This document shows, one piece after another, positions 8,461-42,345 of a DNA stretch of 47,363 nucleotides. Position 1 is the first letter of the stretch. The number at the start of each line of letters is the position of its first letter. The notes under the pieces were generated by a model that made no database searches, had not been told where the DNA came from, and saw only the letters and a list, made by a program, of their open reading frames with translations. Made by a program: the position numbers and the translations under genes. Source of the stretch: Candidatus Nomurabacteria bacterium GW2011_GWB1_43_19 (GTDB taxonomy: Bacteria > Patescibacteriota > Minisyncoccia > Phycocordibacterales > UBA9973); the NCBI GenBank assembly GCA_000999465.1, contig LCGB01000004.1, positions 11,441-58,803 of the forward strand, given 5' to 3'.

Positions 8461-8508
8461 TCCCATATGTCAGACATAGGGGAGTCCCCCTATGTCTGAC
8501 ATATGGGA
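8461..8508. repeat. 22-bp-arm perfect palindrome (TGTCAGAC family)
   Basis: TCCCATATGTCAGACATAGGGG-AGTC-CCCCTATGTCTGACATATGGGA directly after the ftsK stop. Confidence 0.9.
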
Positions 8509-21167: not shown

Positions 21168-21251
21168 ACTTTTATTTTATCATGGTTCTAAAAAATCACC
21201 ATGATTCCGAACTAATCAATTAAATCCCAAATTATATAAATAAAATAATGA

Positions 21252-21285
21252 TAGTATAATGATAGCGACCGCTATTATTATACTA
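21252..21285. repeat. Palindromic repeat 3' of Cas2-like gene 1
   Basis: TAGTATAATGATAGCG-AC-CGCTATTATTATACTA (16-bp stem with one G-T). Confidence 0.9.
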
Positions 21286-21330
21286 GTTTCTATGCTATAA
21301 ACTAAAACTATAAATACTATAAATGAAAAA

Positions 21331-21894
21331 TTATAAGCGGAAAGCTCTTTCTAAGATTTCCCTGTTTGTTATATCCTTGGCGAGAACAAAATGAACATAT
21401 TTGCCCACCTTCCAATAATTTGCCACGAAATCGATTTCTTCTTGACATGGATACGGGTAAACCCACACACTATCATTTAGTTTTATACACCCAAGTTCCT
21501 TTAGTTTTTCCCGCAAAGAATCACGGGCTGACTTTTTCTTTTCGGGAATATCAAAAATAATCATGCGAAAATTTCTGTCCCATATTCGTGGTTTTTTTAT
21601 TTCTAGTTTTTCATAATTAAATCGCAGAAAAATATTTTTACCGCTCTCAGTCAGGACAATCTTGGTACAACCATCACTTTGTTCTTCAAATTCAACTAAT
21701 TTCTGTTTTCTAAGTTTTAAGAAATAATAAGAAATATTTTTTGGCTTTTCGTTTAAATGGAAAATTTCTTTGACAAGTAGTTTGGTCATTTTATAGCTTG
21801 TTCGTCGGTTGGAAAGAGCAACTGTGATGCCGATCCCCATGCCCAGGGCGCGAATTATTTTTCCGCTATTGGATTCTTTATCAATTATTCTCAT
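21331..21894 (-). CDS. Stand-alone Cas2/PaaX-like protein (N-terminal wHTH + Cas2-like domain), gene 1
   Basis: KPRIWDRNFRMIIFDIPEKKKSARDSLREKLKELGCIKLNDSVWVYPYPCQEEIDFVANYWKVGKYVHFVLA, matching the PaaX_M/Cas2-like pattern. Confidence 0.85.
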   Translation of the reverse strand: MRIIDKESNSGKIIRALGMGIGITVALSNRRTSYKMTKLLVKEIFHLNEKPKNISYYFLKLRKQKLVEFEEQSDGCTKIVLTESGKNIFLRFNYEKLEIKKPRIWDRNFRMIIFDIPEKKKSARDSLREKLKELGCIKLNDSVWVYPYPCQEEIDFVANYWKVGKYVHFVLAKDITNREILERAFRL

Positions 21895-21903
21895 ACATTA
21901 TCA

Positions 21904-21945
21904 ATAATAACATAATGATAGCGGTCGCGTCTATTATATTATTAC
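21904..21945. repeat. Imperfect palindromic repeat 5' of Cas2-like gene 1
   Basis: ATAATAACATAATGATAGCGGTCGCGTCTATTATATTATTAC; shares TAATGATAGCGRYCGC..TATTAT with 21252-21285. Confidence 0.7.
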
Positions 21946-26639: not shown

Positions 26640-28355
26640 TTACATCTTCACTGGAGTTTCAATACCAAGAAGATGCAGCCCGGTTTTCATTACAAAAGAG
26701 AAAGCATAAGTGAGCGCAACTTTATATGGAGAATTTTTATCCTCTTTGCTGGCAATAACGGTATTCCCGTAGAAGCTGTTAAATGCGCGAGCGGTTTCTA
26801 TCAAATAGTTGACGATATAGTGCGGCTCATATTTCGAGACGGAACGGAAAACGATTTCCGGAAATTTGTACAGCAATTTCTCCACTTCAAAAATTTCAGG
26901 CGGGAAAGCGTGAGGATCCGGTAAAATATTTTCCTTCTGCGCTTTTTCCAAAACGGAATTCGCCCGCGCATACGAATACTGGAGGTAAGGCCCGGAATCT
27001 CCCTCAAAGGAGATGGAACTTTCAAAATCATAAATAATGTCACCGCCGATGGATTGCTTCAAGATAGAGTATTTTATCGCAGCTACCGCCACATCCGAGG
27101 CGATTTTCTCCCGCTCCTCGTTTCCGAATTCACGGTCGGTCATTTTCTCCAGAATTGCATCACGAACATCGTTTAAGAGAGATTCTCCCGTAATCACATT
27201 GCCTTTCCTTGAGCTCATCTTGCCACCCACGAAACGCATCATACCGTGAGTAATATGTTTCATTCTGTTTTCATAATCCGGGTGGATAAACGAGATGGCC
27301 TTCGCAACAACGCGCATATAATCCATCTGTTCGTTGGCGGTAATAACAATAGACAAATCCATTCCGGGATTTGTTTTGAATTTTTCTTCGGTCAAGCCGA
27401 GCTCCTTGGTTTCATAAGTTGGCAAATTAGCGGAAGTGATGAAAACCCGGGTATGAAATTTGGGGTTGTATTTTTCCGCTTTAAACACAATAGCGCTGTC
27501 TGACTCTTCAAAAACTTTGTCCATATTGTCCTTCACGATATCACGCCCGATATCCGCCATAACGCTTTCCAAAAAATAATAATCAAATTTTGTGCCGAGC
27601 ATCCCGTAGAGGTCTTCAAAGGCCTTCATGGTGACGTCAAAACCCCATTGATATATCTCGTTTATTTTTTCGTCGGTTTTGTCGTAGAGTTTCATGTTTA
27701 TGGCGTCTATTTCTTTTTTGACGCCTTCGTCCGTCTCGTACATTTCCGCTCCGTGCGCGTAGGCGCGGCCAATATTGGCTGCCTGCAGGTTGTATGAACC
27801 CGCTTTGCTTTGAAGCTTTTCGTTTTGCATCAGGCCCCAAATGGCTTTGGCTACGTGAAGCCCGACATCACCCTGGTAATTTGCCCGGGAAACCGCCGCG
27901 CCGGAATGCTCCAGAATACGCGCGATAGATTCCCCGATGGCATTGGTCATCAGATGCCCGATATGAAAGGGCTTGAAAGGATTCGGGTCGGTGTATTCAA
28001 TCATTATTTTTTGACCGGAAAAGACATCGTTCTTGCCGACCATTTTTCCTTTATTCAAAATTTCCTCAATTGAACCGGAGAAAAACTTACGGGATAAATA
28101 AAAATTGATAAACCCCGGACCGGCTGACTCCACCTTTTCCAGATTTTTATCCGTATTCAAGCGCAATATCTCGGCAACTATTTTATCCGACAAGTCCTTC
28201 GGGTTGGTTTTTATGTTTTTGGCAATAGCGAGCGCCACGTTCGTGGAATAATCGCCCATCTTCAAGTCCGCTGGATGTTCCAGGATAATATCGCCGACCT
28301 CAATGCTTAGATTTTGTAGCGCGTCTTTTATTAGATTTTTTATGTTTTGTTCCAT
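26640..28355 (-). CDS. argS: Arginyl-tRNA synthetase
   Basis: MIEYTDPNPFKPFHIGHLMTNAIGESIARILEHSG; GKMSSRKGNVITGESLL; C-terminal DALR anticodon-binding domain. Confidence 0.97.
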   Translation of the reverse strand: MEQNIKNLIKDALQNLSIEVGDIILEHPADLKMGDYSTNVALAIAKNIKTNPKDLSDKIVAEILRLNTDKNLEKVESAGPGFINFYLSRKFFSGSIEEILNKGKMVGKNDVFSGQKIMIEYTDPNPFKPFHIGHLMTNAIGESIARILEHSGAAVSRANYQGDVGLHVAKAIWGLMQNEKLQSKAGSYNLQAANIGRAYAHGAEMYETDEGVKKEIDAINMKLYDKTDEKINEIYQWGFDVTMKAFEDLYGMLGTKFDYYFLESVMADIGRDIVKDNMDKVFEESDSAIVFKAEKYNPKFHTRVFITSANLPTYETKELGLTEEKFKTNPGMDLSIVITANEQMDYMRVVAKAISFIHPDYENRMKHITHGMMRFVGGKMSSRKGNVITGESLLNDVRDAILEKMTDREFGNEEREKIASDVAVAAIKYSILKQSIGGDIIYDFESSISFEGDSGPYLQYSYARANSVLEKAQKENILPDPHAFPPEIFEVEKLLYKFPEIVFRSVSKYEPHYIVNYLIETARAFNSFYGNTVIASKEDKNSPYKVALTYAFSFVMKTGLHLLGIETPVKM

Positions 28356-28357
28356 AA

Positions 28358-28783
28358 TTATTTATGTCCAGTACTTCCTTCGCGCCCGATATCCCTAACT
28401 GTTTCGGAAATTTTATCCGTTTCTAATATCTCGCAGTGTTCAAACTTTTGGATTATCATTTGCGCCACTTTATGACCTTTTTCTATTATAACTTCTTTGT
28501 CAGAAATATTTAAGAGATTCATGATTAATTCACCCCTGTAGCCGGCATCAATCACTCCGCCCATAATTTTCAATCCCAAATTAAAAGCAATACTGGATTT
28601 GTCCCATACTAGCCCCACATATCCCTCCGGTATTTCTATCGCCACTCCCGTACGCACATGCATCTGCTTGCCGGGCGGAAATACCACATTTTCCATCGCA
28701 TAGAAATCCATCCCGGCGTCCCCAGGATGCCCGTGCGTCGGCAATTTCGCGTCCTTATGCAGTTTTTTAACTTTTAAAATCAT
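28358..28783 (-). CDS. dut: dUTP diphosphatase
   Basis: HPGDAGMDFYA, WDKSSIAFNLGLKIMGGVIDAGYRGE, GHKVAQMIIQK, GREGSTGHK. Internal start MILKVKK preferred over the tracked 28810. Confidence 0.95.
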   Translation of the reverse strand: MILKVKKLHKDAKLPTHGHPGDAGMDFYAMENVVFPPGKQMHVRTGVAIEIPEGYVGLVWDKSSIAFNLGLKIMGGVIDAGYRGELIMNLLNISDKEVIIEKGHKVAQMIIQKFEHCEILETDKISETVRDIGREGSTGHK

Positions 28784-29261
28784 AATTTTCCATGCGACGC
28801 TTGACGCCATTAAGAAACATATCCGGGTTTTCTTTTATCATTTTTTTAAGCTCACCTACTTCAAACCATTTCACCTCGGCGACTTCCTGTCCCGCTATTT
28901 TAAAATCATTAAATCCATCTGGCAAGGTCAACAAAAATTCTTGAGTAAAGTAATTCCACTTTCCGTTTGAGCGTGTCTTGGTCCCTAATCTGGGATGAAT
29001 GTTTTTTAAACCCAATTCTTCTTTGGCCTCTTTTAGAATATTGGATTCATACGTTTCCCCTTCCTCTATTGTGCCGGCAACCGCCAGACCCCACTTGCCC
29101 GGATCATGGGACTTATCAAGTGCACGCCGCGCGAGTAAAATTTCTCCCTTACCATTTGTAATCCAAAGAGAAGAAACATGATAAATTGCATCAAGGTTCC
29201 TGTCATTCCTGTCTTCATGCCCTATTATTTCATCCTGTTCATTTACAATCGAAATTCTCAT
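28767..29261 (-). CDS. NUDIX hydrolase (IDI-like)
   Basis: GTIEEGETYESNILKEAKEELGL (NUDIX box) within ...KWGLAVAGTIEEGET. Confidence 0.9.
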   Translation of the reverse strand: MRISIVNEQDEIIGHEDRNDRNLDAIYHVSSLWITNGKGEILLARRALDKSHDPGKWGLAVAGTIEEGETYESNILKEAKEELGLKNIHPRLGTKTRSNGKWNYFTQEFLLTLPDGFNDFKIAGQEVAEVKWFEVGELKKMIKENPDMFLNGVKRRMENYDFKS

Positions 29262-29303
29262 ATTATTATTTAATTATATATCTTTTCTCCACCAAAAACC
29301 AAC

Positions 29304-29336
29304 TTAGCATTAGTGTACGACCGTTTGTTAATGCTA
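29304..29336. repeat. 33-nt palindromic direct repeat, left copy flanking Cas2-like gene 2
   Basis: TTAGCATTAGTGTACGACCGTTTGTTAATGCTA; identical to 29912-29944. Arms TAGCATTA/TAATGCTA. Confidence 0.97.
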
Positions 29337-29340
29337 TAAT
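29335..29340 (+). promoter_or_regulatory. Candidate -10 box overlapping the left repeat
   Basis: TATAAT 7 nt before the ATG at 29347, suggesting a leaderless or very short 5' UTR transcript; no good -35 seen. Confidence 0.4.
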
Positions 29341-29346
29341 AAGCAG

Positions 29347-29910
29347 ATGGAGTATAAAAAACAAAGGATAGGAAACACAAAAAAGAAAGTGCTTTTACTT
29401 CTGGTCGCAGGACTTGCGCTTGGCTTGACTAGGTCACCCAAGAAGCATTGGTGGATTTTAAAAAAGATTCCAAAAGAGTGGAAAAATATAAACCGTCAAG
29501 CACTAGAACGAGCAATTAATTCTTTATACGTTTCCCACTTAGTTCGAGAAAAATATAACAAAGACGGCACAACCACCCTTGTACTAAGTGAAAACGGCAG
29601 GCAAAGAGCTCTAAGGTTTAACATTAATAAGATGGAAATCAGGAAACCGATTAAATGGGACAGGAAATGGAGAATAGTTATGTTTGATGTTCCAGAAAAA
29701 TTAAGAAGGTTGCGAGATTCTCTGCGTTTACACTTCCGAGAAATAGGCCTCATTGAACTTCAAAAATCGGTCTTCGTGTATCCTTATCCCTGCAGTAAAG
29801 AGATTGAATTTATTTTGGAATTTTATAATGCCAGAAAGTATGTACGTTCTATTTTGGCTGAAAAGATAGATAATCAACTTCATTTAATGGGCAAGTTTGG
29901 CTTATGCTAA
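29347..29910 (+). CDS. Stand-alone Cas2/PaaX-like protein (wHTH + Cas2-like), gene 2
   Basis: KPIKWDRKWRIVMFDVPEKLRRLRDSLRLHFREIGLIELQKSVFVYPYPCSKEIEFILEFYNARKYVRSILAEKI; clear homologue of 21331-21894. Confidence 0.88.
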   Translation: MEYKKQRIGNTKKKVLLLLVAGLALGLTRSPKKHWWILKKIPKEWKNINRQALERAINSLYVSHLVREKYNKDGTTTLVLSENGRQRALRFNINKMEIRKPIKWDRKWRIVMFDVPEKLRRLRDSLRLHFREIGLIELQKSVFVYPYPCSKEIEFILEFYNARKYVRSILAEKIDNQLHLMGKFGLC

Positions 29911-29911
29911 T

Positions 29912-29944
29912 TTAGCATTAGTGTACGACCGTTTGTTAATGCTA
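29912..29944. repeat. 33-nt palindromic direct repeat, right copy flanking Cas2-like gene 2
   Basis: TTAGCATTAGTGTACGACCGTTTGTTAATGCTA, starts 2 nt after the stop codon; 33/33 identical to the left copy. Confidence 0.97.
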
Positions 29945-29952
29945 AATGGGTT

Positions 29953-30543
29953 TTAGGGCTTGATTTTGAAGTGTTTGATAATCATATTGGCGACCTTTTG
30001 TGGTGAAAGATTTGTGTTATCTATTACTAAGTTGTGCTTTAATTCCGGGGAAGTGTGCCAATCCTTGGTCTTTAATAATTCCTTAAGAATTTTTTTATCC
30101 TTTAACTTTCCGAATCTTTTTCTTGAGTCCGTACTAACACGCCTTAACAGTTCCCTGTCGGCGGCCTTCAGGTGTATCGGTAAAAATCTCGCTCCCAGCC
30201 TAGTGAGTTTTTTCTTATGGTTTTGAACAAATTGCTGCTCGGTAACGCCGCTCGGATATACAAAATCGTGCGAATAGGTATAAGTCGTGACCAGACTAAT
30301 CCCGGCTTTTACTGCTTGTTCCATCAAGTAATTCCTTAAAAATTCCTTCACATTCCCATTTTCTTTGGTTCCACGAGTAAATAAGTGGTCAACCACATCA
30401 TTAATAGCGTGATTATGGGTTAGTGTGTATTGAAGCTTATTTGACAGAACTTTTGCTACTGTCAGTTTCCCCGCCGCAATAGGACCGTACAAAAAAATAA
30501 CAACCGGCTTTTTATTTTTTGATAATTTTTTTGATTTTTTCAT
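29953..30543 (-). CDS. P-loop kinase-like protein
   Basis: VVIFLYGPIAAGKLTVAKVLSNKL (Walker A), LID-like RVSTDSRKRFGKLKDK. Confidence 0.75.
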   Translation of the reverse strand: MKKSKKLSKNKKPVVIFLYGPIAAGKLTVAKVLSNKLQYTLTHNHAINDVVDHLFTRGTKENGNVKEFLRNYLMEQAVKAGISLVTTYTYSHDFVYPSGVTEQQFVQNHKKKLTRLGARFLPIHLKAADRELLRRVSTDSRKRFGKLKDKKILKELLKTKDWHTSPELKHNLVIDNTNLSPQKVANMIIKHFKIKP

Positions 30544-31210
30544 AAACTTTTGCGTGGATATTTTCCCGGGTATCCAATTTGCCGTTTTGCATACATTCTA
30601 TCTTTATCCATCCTTTCTGCGTTTTGGCGAGCCAAAGCGCGCTCTTTCTGGAATTCTCTAAAAATCTAACGTCTTTTTCATGAACGTCCTTTTTCTTACC
30701 CAGATATTTTCTCCTTTTGTCGTTGCCATCCCGCTTGCGGATTAATTTCAAAACTACCGGAATCGGCACATTTAGGTAAAACACCGCATCCGGCCTGGGA
30801 ATTTTAAAAACTTCATATTCCATCTCCGCCAGCCACCCGAGAAAGCTCTCCCTTTTTTTGGTATTCGTAATCTTTCCACCCTGATGGATTTGATTAGCGC
30901 TCGCATACCTGTCAGCGATGACGATATATCCTTCCTTCAACCATTGTTCAATTTTATTCTTGGATTCAAAACGGTCAGCGGCATAGAGTACCGAAGCGAT
31001 TTTTGGATGCACTTTCACGAAATTATAATATTGCTCGGAGAGACAGTGTCCGATGAATTTGCCGAAAAAATTGGAGGAGTAGTCGGGGAAATCAACAACT
31101 TTTACTTTGTATCCGTCTTTCTTTAGATGCTTTATCAAAAGTCCGGCTTGGGTAGCTTTGCCGCTCCCATCCATGCCATCAATTACTATCAATTTACCCT
31201 TTTTTACCAT
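30512..31210 (-). CDS. tmk: Thymidylate kinase
   Basis: GKLIVIDGMDGSGKATQAGLLIKHL, VIADRYASANQIHQGGK. Confidence 0.93.
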   Translation of the reverse strand: MVKKGKLIVIDGMDGSGKATQAGLLIKHLKKDGYKVKVVDFPDYSSNFFGKFIGHCLSEQYYNFVKVHPKIASVLYAADRFESKNKIEQWLKEGYIVIADRYASANQIHQGGKITNTKKRESFLGWLAEMEYEVFKIPRPDAVFYLNVPIPVVLKLIRKRDGNDKRRKYLGKKKDVHEKDVRFLENSRKSALWLAKTQKGWIKIECMQNGKLDTRENIHAKVYEKIKKIIKK

Positions 31211-31234
31211 ACAGGAAATATACCAGAAAAATAT

Positions 31235-31708
31235 TTATTTTCCCAATTCTTTTAACGCTTCGGTGGCGTAAAAACGCACATTCGGTATGAGTTCCATTTT
31301 TTCAAGTTCTTCTGTGTTTACCCAACGGGTATGAGTCCTTTCATGTTCGTTCGTGGAATCGGTAATCTGGTCGGTGTCAGCCGTGGCAAAATAAACAAAG
31401 GCAATGTGCTCATGGTTCTCATTTACCGGATGCCGGCCAAGGTAGCGCGGAGGTATGAGATATTTATATCCGCGATTTTCTGCTTCGCCGTTTTTGGGAC
31501 CGTGCGCCTCTCCGACAATCTTCACCTCTAGCCCCACCTCTTCCTTCACTTCGCGATACGCCGCCTCTATCGGGTCTTCGTCTAGTTCAATGTGTCCACC
31601 GACGGAAAGCCAGATATTGTATTTGTCATGCATACGCAAAAGAACTTTGTTCTTGTGGACAATAAAAACTTCCACGCAGTAATCTATTTTGTCATGTATA
31701 TGAGGCAT
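31235..31708 (-). CDS. NUDIX hydrolase
   Basis: GGHIELDEDPIEAAYREVKEEVGLEV (NUDIX box). Confidence 0.95.
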   Translation of the reverse strand: MPHIHDKIDYCVEVFIVHKNKVLLRMHDKYNIWLSVGGHIELDEDPIEAAYREVKEEVGLEVKIVGEAHGPKNGEAENRGYKYLIPPRYLGRHPVNENHEHIAFVYFATADTDQITDSTNEHERTHTRWVNTEELEKMELIPNVRFYATEALKELGK

Positions 31709-31709
31709 A

Positions 31710-31811
31710 CTATTTCAAATCAAATTTCATTAAAACTTCTTTAAAATATTTATCCGTTGGCTCAAGATTTGAAATATCTTCCAATGAGAGCCATCCGACC
31801 TGTAGTTCCAT
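31710..31811 (-). CDS. 33-aa small ORF resembling a NUDIX C-terminal tail (possible remnant)
   Basis: MELQVGWLSLEDISNLEPTDKYFKEVLMKFDLK; below the tracked ORF length cut-off. Confidence 0.35.
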   Translation of the reverse strand: MELQVGWLSLEDISNLEPTDKYFKEVLMKFDLK

Positions 31812-31812
31812 A

Positions 31813-32487
31813 TTATCTCCTTTTGATAATTAATTCTTCTACCGGTTTCTTTTCTAATAAATTATTAACTATCTTCTCGGCAACAAAATTTGGATCCATA
31901 AGTTCAATATAGTTTTTGGGCTTGCTTTCATCAAACAAATTCGTTTGCATGCCTCCTGGGTAAACCCCTAATACTTTAATTTTTTTTCCATCTACTTCTT
32001 TTGCGAGAGATTGTGTAAACCCTGTTGCTGCAAATTTGCTTGCGCAATAGGCTGTTTCGTTTATTTTTCCATTTAAACCACTGGTTGAAATAATATTTAC
32101 AATTAAACCAAAATTCTGCTTCCTCATTTGAGCTAAAGCAATCTTAGACCCATAAACTGTACCAAATAAATTAACCTCCATTAAGTCATGGGCCCTTTTC
32201 CAATCAGTTTCTTCAATTGGTTTATGAGGCAACCAAATACCGGCATTATTAACCCAGATATCTATTTTACCGAAATCGTTAATAACTTTTTTGGCCAAAG
32301 CCTCAATTTCATTTTCTTTTGTAACATCTGCTTTTACACCAATAATCCCATTTTTTAAATTTTTAAATTCCCCTTCTCGGGAACAAACCACGACTTTTGA
32401 GCCGTTTTTTAAAAAACAAAGAGCGAGAACTTTTCCTAGACCTTTACTTCCTCCTGTTATTACAACTACTTTATTTTTTAAATCCAT
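31813..32487 (-). CDS. Short-chain dehydrogenase/reductase
   Basis: VVITGGSKGLGKVLALCF (TGxxxGxG), NNAGIW, YCASKFAATGF (YxxxK). Confidence 0.95.
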   Translation of the reverse strand: MDLKNKVVVITGGSKGLGKVLALCFLKNGSKVVVCSREGEFKNLKNGIIGVKADVTKENEIEALAKKVINDFGKIDIWVNNAGIWLPHKPIEETDWKRAHDLMEVNLFGTVYGSKIALAQMRKQNFGLIVNIISTSGLNGKINETAYCASKFAATGFTQSLAKEVDGKKIKVLGVYPGGMQTNLFDESKPKNYIELMDPNFVAEKIVNNLLEKKPVEELIIKRR

Positions 32488-35345: not shown

Positions 35346-36834
35346 AAAATTTTTTCATGCTTCGTCCAAAAAGCCGGTAGGTAAACCAGCCATAAATTAC
35401 CAAAACCAATATAATCGGAAAATTTGGAATGGTAAAAGAAGCAAAAGAAACACCGGCCAGGACATTGATTACACCAAGTTCCCAGTGAAGCAAAAGATAC
35501 GCAATGTAACCGAGCGGCGTCGCCAGAATGTGCGAAATTATCCCGGCAAAGCCGGTGAAAAATCCAAAAATCATGGTAAGCGGTATAAAAGGAAGAATCA
35601 GAACATTGGCAGGGAACGCCACCAGCGACAAGTTCCCCATTTTATACAGAACAAAAGGCAGAACAAAAATATAGGCGGCGAAAGTGACCGAAACTACATC
35701 CCGCAGCTTGAAAGATTCCGGTACCCATAGAAAATACTTCTCTACCTTGGGCGCAAAGAATATCACGGCAATTGTCGCAATGAATGAAAGTTGAAAAGAA
35801 ACATCATAAACAAGCACAAACGGGTTAAAAATAATCATTAAAACACCGGCAAGTATCAACGCCCGTGCAACATCATAATTTCTGCCAGTAGCGCGGGCAA
35901 TAAGCGCCAGGACAGCCATCGTGCCTGCACGCACGGCAGTCGCTTGTCCGCCCGCCATCACTACAAAAAGTAAAATCCCGAAAATACCAGCGCTAAATCC
36001 AAAATTGCGCGGCAAAAACGCAAATATTTCCATAATCCATTCAGCAACAATCGTCACATTATAGCCGGAAAGCGCTACGATATGTATGGTGCCGGTATCT
36101 ATAAATCTCTGACGCATCTCTTGTCCGAAAGAAGAACGTTCGCCGAGAATTAACCCACCCATCAACAGATTTTCGGGTTCAGGAATGGCAAAATCCATTT
36201 TTTCCAGAAATTTTCCCTTGGCGAAAAACAGCGCGCTTTTGACTATGTTGCCGTTCCCCCTCGAAACAATTTCAATTTTCGAATAGCTCATCACATATAA
36301 AATCCCATCCTTGCGCAAATAATTCACATAATCAAAAACTTTGCCTTGGTCGGTGATAAAATTTTCCGGCTTTTTGAGAGTTCCTTTTAAACTTATCTCG
36401 TCTCCATATTTATAATTCTCTTCCAAGCCAGTTGATAATAAAATTTTAACTGACACACTTTCTGCCATGGCAGAGTTTGTGTCAGTTTGGACAAGTTTTG
36501 CAAGAAGAGTCAATTGCTGATTGTTTTCTTTAACGTTCGGTTCATCCACGATTTTTCCCGTCAAAGAAACATTTTTGCTGACTTTGGACTCGAAAACGAC
36601 AGGGTTGGGAGTATCAGCTATATCAAATCTAAACATCCCAACTGAAAACATCAGGACAAAAATTGAAATTAAAATTCCTAAATTCTTCTTGGAAACAAAC
36701 GCAAAAAACAAAAACAGGGCAACAGAAATCACGCTAAACAAGATGGTCAAATAAATATTTACAAAAACAAAAGAGCGCAACAGCACTCCAAATATAAAAC
36801 CGAAACAAACTGAATAGAAAGCCCAATCACGCAT
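35329..36834 (-). CDS. comEC: ComEC/Rec2 competence-family membrane protein
   Basis: DUF4131-like N-terminus; ALSGYNVTIVAEWI, TAVRAGTMAVLALIARATGRNYDVARAL; multi-TM. Confidence 0.92.
   Translation of the reverse strand: MRDWAFYSVCFGFIFGVLLRSFVFVNIYLTILFSVISVALFLFFAFVSKKNLGILISIFVLMFSVGMFRFDIADTPNPVVFESKVSKNVSLTGKIVDEPNVKENNQQLTLLAKLVQTDTNSAMAESVSVKILLSTGLEENYKYGDEISLKGTLKKPENFITDQGKVFDYVNYLRKDGILYVMSYSKIEIVSRGNGNIVKSALFFAKGKFLEKMDFAIPEPENLLMGGLILGERSSFGQEMRQRFIDTGTIHIVALSGYNVTIVAEWIMEIFAFLPRNFGFSAGIFGILLFVVMAGGQATAVRAGTMAVLALIARATGRNYDVARALILAGVLMIIFNPFVLVYDVSFQLSFIATIAVIFFAPKVEKYFLWVPESFKLRDVVSVTFAAYIFVLPFVLYKMGNLSLVAFPANVLILPFIPLTMIFGFFTGFAGIISHILATPLGYIAYLLLHWELGVINVLAGVSFASFTIPNFPIILVLVIYGWFTYRLFGRSMKKFFTEPL
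36448..36487. repeat. In-frame intragenic palindrome in comEC
   Basis: AACTGACACA-CTTTCTGCCATGGCAGAGTT-TGTGTCAGTT; core matches the repeats flanking Cas2-like gene 3. Confidence 0.85.
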
Positions 36835-39587: not shown

Positions 39588-39627
39588 TTATACTCAAAAC
39601 TCTGCTATGGCAGATAAAAAAGTATAA
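39588..39627. repeat. Palindromic repeat 3' of Cas2-like gene 3
   Basis: TTATACTCAAAACTCTGCTATGGCAGATAAAAAAGTATAA. Confidence 0.85.
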
Positions 39628-39633
39628 GAGTAT

Positions 39634-40128
39634 TTAAAGATTAAAAGAGGTGATTTGGTAACTCTTGGCTAGTCTCAGCGCTTTGAGATGTCTTTGCAGG
39701 CGAATACGTTTTATATAGGATATAAACTCCTCCGGTAAAGGAGAGGGTCCGACCCAAACACTTTTGTGTATCATCTCGTACCCGAATTTTCGCAAATGAA
39801 ACCTGAGCCACTCCCTTTCGGCTTTTTTATTCTGTGGAATGTCATACATCACAATAAGATTTTTAGGAGCATCTTTCGGAAAACACGATGAAAAACTTTT
39901 CATAGAATGAAGCTTTCGCTCAATATATTTCCTACCGGCAAGAGATATAATTGCCCGATTTTCTCCCTGCAAAATATAATTTTTCTTTCTTAATTTGTAT
40001 ACGGCGTTGCGAATAGATTGTTTTTTGTAAGGGCTGAAAGCGGGCAAGCCGAAAAGACTTACCAGCACGCCCTTGTATCGAAGGCGCGGTTTCAAAAGAA
40101 GTTCCAAAATTTTCTCTGATAAATTCAT
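39634..40128 (-). CDS. Stand-alone Cas2/PaaX-like protein (wHTH + Cas2-like), gene 3
   Basis: PKNLIVMYDIPQNKKAEREWLRFHLRKFGYEMIHKSVWVGPSPLPEEFISYI; same architecture as genes 1 and 2 but divergent. Confidence 0.8.
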   Translation of the reverse strand: MNLSEKILELLLKPRLRYKGVLVSLFGLPAFSPYKKQSIRNAVYKLRKKNYILQGENRAIISLAGRKYIERKLHSMKSFSSCFPKDAPKNLIVMYDIPQNKKAEREWLRFHLRKFGYEMIHKSVWVGPSPLPEEFISYIKRIRLQRHLKALRLAKSYQITSFNL

Positions 40129-40144
40129 ATCGAGTTAATCATAC

Positions 40145-40196
40145 CACCCAATATACTTAAAATCTAGCCATGGCATAAATTTAAGTATGTGTGGGT
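40145..40196. repeat. Palindromic repeat 5' of Cas2-like gene 3
   Basis: CACCCAATATACTTAAAATCTAGCCATGGCATAAATTTAAGTATGTGTGGGTG; aligns with 39588-39627 in direct orientation. Confidence 0.8.
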
Positions 40197-42206: not shown

Positions 42207-42345
42207 GCGGTAAATTATACCATATTGGCCAAACAAAAAACCAAAACCTTATTTTTTATCTCTAATATTCTCAATACCACAATAGCCGCGGCCGTGGTTA
42301 TTGTGGAATGGTTAATTCGGAATGTTAATATAATCTAGTTTCTAG

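Follow-up and report, generated by a model that had tools for sequence, protein, structure and literature searches.

Why does a gene for a short Cas2/PaaX-like protein stand between two identical copies of one 33-nt sequence, with one copy just before its start codon and the other just after its stop codon? The gene lies in the 47,363-nt stretch of DNA analyzed here (the window), and we favor reading it as one of many genes for autoregulated DNA-binding proteins, each of which would carry its own paired double-stranded DNA sites and be inherited, gained, and lost with them as a cassette. We put the probability of this reading as a whole at slightly above one half (about 0.52).

The repeats and the gene between them

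The sequence TTAGCATTAGTGTACGACCGTTTGTTAATGCTA occurs at positions 29304-29336 and again at 29912-29944, with 33 of 33 positions identical and both copies in direct orientation. No such pair arose in 100 shuffles, and a search of the 623-kb genome found no further copy with three or fewer mismatches. The bracketing of a Cas2/PaaX-like gene by two identical direct 33-mers, as an earlier note on this DNA described it, is confirmed. Ten nucleotides separate the left copy from the ATG (29347) and one separates the stop codon (29908-29910) from the right copy. The same note called each copy palindromic, which holds for the outer TAGCATTA/TAATGCTA arms and the ACG-AC-CGT core and fails for the copy as a whole: around the dyad center (between 29320 and 29321) only 11 of 16 pairs match, positions 5 to 8 from the dyad are unpaired, and the perfect repeat is therefore an imperfect palindrome.

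The left copy abuts an extended -10 element, TGCTATAAT, and therefore fits the autoregulatory operator that had been proposed to explain it; the operator is predicted from this placement. Our promoter consensus scan needs a -35 element and did not flag this -10 element. The gene is probably leaderless. Because this genome holds no site of the unit's class beyond its own pair, the predicted regulator would act only on itself, which counts against this reading. The window contains two further units of the same kind and a solo site (Table 1). The P-loop kinase-like gene beside the unit accompanies it in most relatives, is absent from several that keep the unit, and is not seen at the empty sites examined; it is possibly a passenger.

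Table 1. Units, dyad sites, and flanking genes in the window
Feature	Position	Strand	Remarks
Second unit, right dyad site	21251..21286	-	
Second unit, short PaaX/Cas2-like gene	21331..21894	-	187 aa
Second unit, left (promoter-side) dyad site	21907..21942	-	
Flanking Nudix gene	28767..29261	-	Abuts tmk in genomes without the unit
Left dyad site, 36 bp around the dyad	29303..29338	+	Holds the left 33-mer; overlaps the gene's probable promoter
Extended -10 element TGCTATAAT	29332..29340	+	At right end of left site; ATG about 6 nt downstream; read from sequence
Short PaaX/Cas2-like DNA-binding protein gene (predicted)	29347..29910	+	187 aa; PF20803, E=1.8e-20; modeled at medium confidence as a winged helix plus a Cas2-like fold
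Right dyad site	29911..29946	+	Holds the right 33-mer; between the stop codons of two convergent genes
Flanking P-loop kinase-like gene	29953..30543	-	Convergent with the unit
Third unit, right dyad site	39590..39625	-	
Third unit, short PaaX/Cas2-like gene	39634..40128	-	164 aa
Third unit, left (promoter-side) dyad site	40153..40188	-	
Solo dyad site	42274..42309	.	Class of another unit of this genome (G000:C6:5568)

The protein encoded between the repeats matches PaaX_M (PF20803) at 73.3 bits against a cut-off of 24 (E=1.8e-20), and this is the only PaaX domain listed above cut-off in its 187 aa, with neither the N-terminal nor the C-terminal PaaX Pfam domain among the matches listed. Two Cas2 models fall below their cut-offs (PF09827, 16.3 bits versus 23.8; TIGR01573, 23 versus 24.5), and the PaaX equivalog TIGR02277 scores 21.1 bits versus 264.55. 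A Pfam search of the protein found no HUH/Y1, DDE, or recombinase signature. An AlphaFold2 model built from ten sequences, of medium to low confidence (mean pLDDT, 65.9), places a winged helix before a Cas2-like ferredoxin fold; in a fold search with this model, E. coli PaaX and Cas2 rank high, with none at E<=0.001, and a PDB sequence search returned nothing meaningful. The PaaX_M match and the modeled fold agree with the winged-helix and Cas2-like domains first assigned to the protein. An aspartate at the end of the first Cas2-like strand is near-invariant in the family (94 of 95 sequences), and a catalytic role may therefore be retained. According to the model, the protein would share its ferredoxin fold and this aspartate with Cas2/VapD nucleases; it differs from them in its fused winged helix, and no Cas1 or array is seen near the gene.

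Paired sites across the family

With genes called by a simple open reading frame procedure in incomplete genome fragments, we count 11 family members in this genome (three of them in the window), 19 in a second (G052), 13 in a third (G001), and one in others. In a sample of the phylum, 94 of 290 genomes carry the family at 0 to 11 copies each, some of them broken by stops. The named relatives of the window protein come from Candidatus Nomurabacteria, and a search of viral contigs found no relative.

The bracketed layout, one site just upstream of the start codon and a second just after the stop, is present in 128 of the 166 family members examined (72 of 96 in the set drawn from the genus and order, 56 of 70 in the phylum set), as judged by a script that seeks two palindromes that also match each other, with a threshold of 42 that nearly all composition shuffles fail to reach. 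A near-ubiquitous paralogue of about 175 aa and relatives of canonical length (about 245 to 260 aa) serve as internal controls and mostly lack the site pair. An unbiased search for bracketing pairs over 616 kb, which misses classes with asymmetric arms, returned nine pairs, six of them around family genes, versus two in the reversed control. One unit (L208) has extra tandem copies of its dyad site outside both its left and its right copies.

Across these units the site is a dyad of 34 to 36 bp with an 8-bp core that is nearly always RCNNNNGY (GCATATGC, ACGGCCGT, ACGACCGT, GCTATAGC, and GCGGTCGC, among others) and with locus-specific arms. Symmetry peaks in the core and the outer half-sites and is minimal 4 to 8 bp from the dyad; symmetric half-sites and a symmetric core around an asymmetric spacer are what would be expected of a site read by a dimer. 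Left and right arms agree at 21.5 of 28 positions within a locus, compared with 9.9 of 28 between loci, and in 96.5% of loci the left-right match exceeds the 95th percentile of cross pairs. The two sites of a unit match better in direct orientation in 58 cases and in inverted orientation in 20, with 37 ties. At positions that are asymmetric in both copies, agreement is mostly in the direct and not the inverted sense, and it is clearest in the arms; the copies thus have more in common than being palindromes and are linked by duplication or homogenization. The upstream copy commonly holds the -10 element; of the two, the downstream one is often closer to a perfect palindrome.

The window has two other palindromes. 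A 36-bp ATGTCAGACATAKGGGAATTCCCMTATGTCTGACAT-like palindrome at about position 8484 recurs at many places in the genome and has an unrelated core; the long palindrome CTGACACACTTTCTGCCATGGCAGAGTTTGTGTCAG (36450-36485) lies inside a comEC-like coding region and weakly matches one unit class.

Gain, loss, and dispersal of sites

Orthologues that carry the gene with diverged or absent flanking repeats, which the earlier note had named as evidence against a repeat-gene-repeat unit, are not what the close relatives present. Among 12 genomes with close orthologues of the window gene, a direct-repeat search finds both sites kept in 11 and a looser pair search finds them in all 12, and the sites diverge between species yet stay alike within a locus. 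Ten of the 12 orthologues occupy one slot, between argS-dut-(Nudix) and (kinase)-tmk, and two (L007 and L009) lie elsewhere. In other genomes this slot is empty: the Nudix gene abuts tmk, and neither the gene nor a palindrome is present. The same is seen in the opposite direction, where units of other species are missing from this genome as wholes, gene and both palindromes together, and the neighbors there are only 2 to 42 bp apart.

Solo copies occur as well. The slot between pth and dnaE holds the window-type unit L007 in one genome (G014), different units in G001 and G052, a solo palindrome of the window's class in G035, and no unit in this genome. The units of the three species are about 30% identical, and the difference between G014 and G035 is exactly the gene plus one palindrome. 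Two other apparent solo palindromes (C5:15347 and C6:31836) are unlike any unit class and were left uncounted as chance. At a further slot, between secY and cmk, units are found in several species (L120, L134, L085, and L086), through an old insertion or repeated use of the slot, and a duplicated 3' end of the neighboring kinase gene accompanies at least L120 and L085. A duplicate of the convergent neighbor's 3' end on the far side of the unit measures 43 bp at L120 and 29 bp at L145 and is diverged at L085. Flanking duplications that resemble target-site duplications are clear in only a few of about 130 units (L120, L145, and a few weak cases), which rules them out as a general feature.

Sites are also dispersed outside the units. 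Matrices made from each unit identified roughly 20 extra sites in this genome above the maximum of a reversed-sequence control, a count that varies with the thresholds. Sites of the window's class are present in 16 of 20 tested genomes, against none in any of the 20 for the reversed pattern, and in 4 of those 16 they are orphans, with no window-type gene detected. By their neighbors, 23 sites outside units are convergent, 13 co-directional, and 0 divergent; convergent neighbors make up 42 of 291 pairs in this genome, and with this baseline the sites are strongly enriched at 3' ends. Fifteen sites adjoin the gene for a multicopy treble-clef zinc protein, in places bracketing it (L353, L354, and L355). 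This protein of about 560 aa (IEPDDFxFYEKIKVPPPTFCPxCR; L353, L354, L355, and L362, and C3:39049-40831 and C3:54305-57413 in this genome) has no Pfam or NCBIfam match above cut-off.

Sites also lie inside miaA, at one fixed codon position. Those of six genomes are of the window's class, and those of other genomes belong to other classes; the loci with a site are that of this genome (G000 C3:7402-8220), L248, L256, L258, L259, L268, and L372. Among the six genomes, identity at third codon positions is 0.89 in the site versus 0.50 elsewhere, and the length in codons is unchanged. The miaA site is therefore selected as DNA and was produced by substitution, and insertion of a palindrome is ruled out.

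The leading rival explanation is an autonomous one-gene mobile element, in which the palindromes would be the ends on which the Cas2-like protein moves the unit and perhaps solo palindromes too, much as RAYT transposases do with REP sequences, although the protein is unrelated to theirs. It would account for the patchy multicopy spread (0 to 19 per genome), the discrete empty sites, the use of the pth-dnaE slot by unrelated units and by a solo site in a fourth genome, the one-palindrome step between solo and full states, the close relatives that the window unit has elsewhere (L007 and L009), the direct rather than inverted sites, and the host duplications at L120, L145, and L085; solo sites that are mostly convergent and never divergent are also as expected if they persist where insertion is least harmful. 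We nevertheless judge it fairly unlikely, because a Pfam search found no HUH, DDE, or recombinase signature, host duplications are rare, no unit was caught as two near-identical copies in one genome, 10 of the 12 close orthologues share one location, and the miaA sites are not insertions. The stronger proposal of a new class of minimal mobile element is a speculative one that we would not expect to hold. On that proposal, a winged-helix/Cas2-like protein, in place of an HUH, DDE, or recombinase enzyme, would move its own gene and scatter its own dyad sites, and its specificity would change quickly enough for one 600-kb genome to contain a dozen or more copies independent of one another.

We consider it improbable that the protein is simply an autoregulated transcription factor of the ordinary kind that serves a small regulon. 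The right site would then be an auxiliary operator, and the patchiness would reflect gene loss and transfer by natural transformation. The left site does lie on the promoter, the layout is shared with E. coli PaaX autoregulation, and some dispersed sites are 21 to 27 bp upstream of the start codons of zinc-protein and purine genes. However, nearly all units retain the right site, including those in which it lies between convergent genes; most dispersed sites of the window's class lie at 3' ends, with none between divergent genes; and units of distinct specificities replace one another in a single slot. A purine regulon was considered from a solo site before purD in this genome and rejected, since that site is not conserved in about 29 relatives.

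That the palindromes work as hairpins, either of RNA (for termination or processing) or of single-stranded DNA, is very improbable. Their location just past stop codons and between convergent genes and the G-U-compatible mismatches in the window's clade would suit it, but over 115 units the gene strand has no bias toward G-T over A-C mismatches (97/83 and 82/67), and therefore no sign of a selected single-strand hairpin, which led us to reject this candidate. In addition, transcription probably starts downstream of the left copy, the palindromes have no T-run and a terminator scan finds nothing there, and the inner part is often unpaired while the outer half-sites are still conserved. A CRISPR-repeat-like boundary used by a Cas2-like integrase has a negligible probability, for despite the Cas2-like fold there is no repeat-spacer array among the repeats in 28000-32000, each unit has sites of its own sequence that track its protein and are promoter and 3'-end dyads, and PaaX transcription factors have the same domain. 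Of the earlier proposals, the discrete unit, with empty and solo states, is supported, and the alternative of a CRISPR-like boundary is not.

Proposed autoregulation and possible roles of the second site

An autoregulated dimeric PaaX-type protein is the most economical mechanism that we can propose from these sequences. In this short protein, which is without the PaaX C-terminal domain, the winged helix would read the sequence and the Cas2-like domain would dimerize; the dimer would bind the 34- to 36-bp double-stranded dyad through the outer half-sites and the RCNNNNGY core. Bound to the left copy, on the promoter, it would repress its own gene. The right copy, past the stop codon, would serve as a second site with the same specificity and would mark the far end of the cassette; protein that bridges the two copies could form a loop. 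The extra sites at convergent ends, at zinc-protein genes, and in miaA would be further binding places, probably roadblocks to elongation or 3'-end insulators. Binding, autorepression, looping, and roadblock are steps that we infer.

PaaX is a close precedent for part of this scheme. The E. coli protein binds TGATTC(N27)GAATCA and sterically represses the promoter of its own gene (PMC9493321). PaaX of E. coli and Pseudomonas, like the predicted unit protein, combines a winged helix with a Cas2-like middle domain, and a palindromic operator of similar span on its own promoter (PMC9493321) corresponds to the one predicted here. It differs in its length (about 300 aa versus 187 aa), and the unit has no paa genes nearby, has a candidate operator also after the stop codon, and belongs to a set of many paralogues with separate specificities in one genome. 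A repressor alone leaves unexplained the persistence of 11 to 19 paralogues, each with its own specificity, the almost invariable presence of the right site, and the agreement of the two sites in direct orientation at asymmetric positions. The second site may serve looping, may block read-through, or may be the other end of a mobile unit.

Other systems also associate a gene with palindromes. In RAYT/REP systems the gene is flanked by palindromes of its own class, orthologues stay put, the palindromes drift yet stay palindromic, and extra copies lie between genes (PMC2817692). The units here likewise place a single gene between two palindromes of its own class, with others scattered between genes, and their orthologues too mostly keep their location while the flanking palindromes drift. 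However, their protein has no Y1/HUH transposase domain, their sites are direct where RAYT palindromes are inverted, and the scattered copies number 0 to 10 per class versus more than 100 for REP; therefore, the family is not a RAYT. The symmetry here is also of the double-stranded DNA type, and the left site overlaps the promoter. Integron attC cassettes consist of one gene with a palindromic site right after its stop codon, with variable arms and a conserved core. The site after the stop codon, with its variable arms and conserved core, is shared with our units, and tandem zinc-protein genes here are separated by sites; unlike attC cassettes, a unit has its own promoter, a site on both sides, and chromosome-wide dispersal. 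Insertion sequences share with the units the empty sites in relatives and differ in target-site duplication, which only a few units show.

A limited search of the open-access literature on PaaX or Cas2 in Patescibacteria found no description of the family, and these self-bracketed one-gene units are apparently undescribed so far. They are common in Patescibacteria genomes otherwise reduced to the bare minimum, which raises the question of why a minimal genome keeps many self-recognizing, self-bracketed regulators. The units supply dozens of natural pairs of a predicted DNA-binding protein and its cognate 36-bp site, which could be used to work out a recognition code for winged-helix/Cas2-like proteins. 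Should the protein prove to mobilize its unit, this would give Cas2-like folds a part in mobility that does not involve Cas1.
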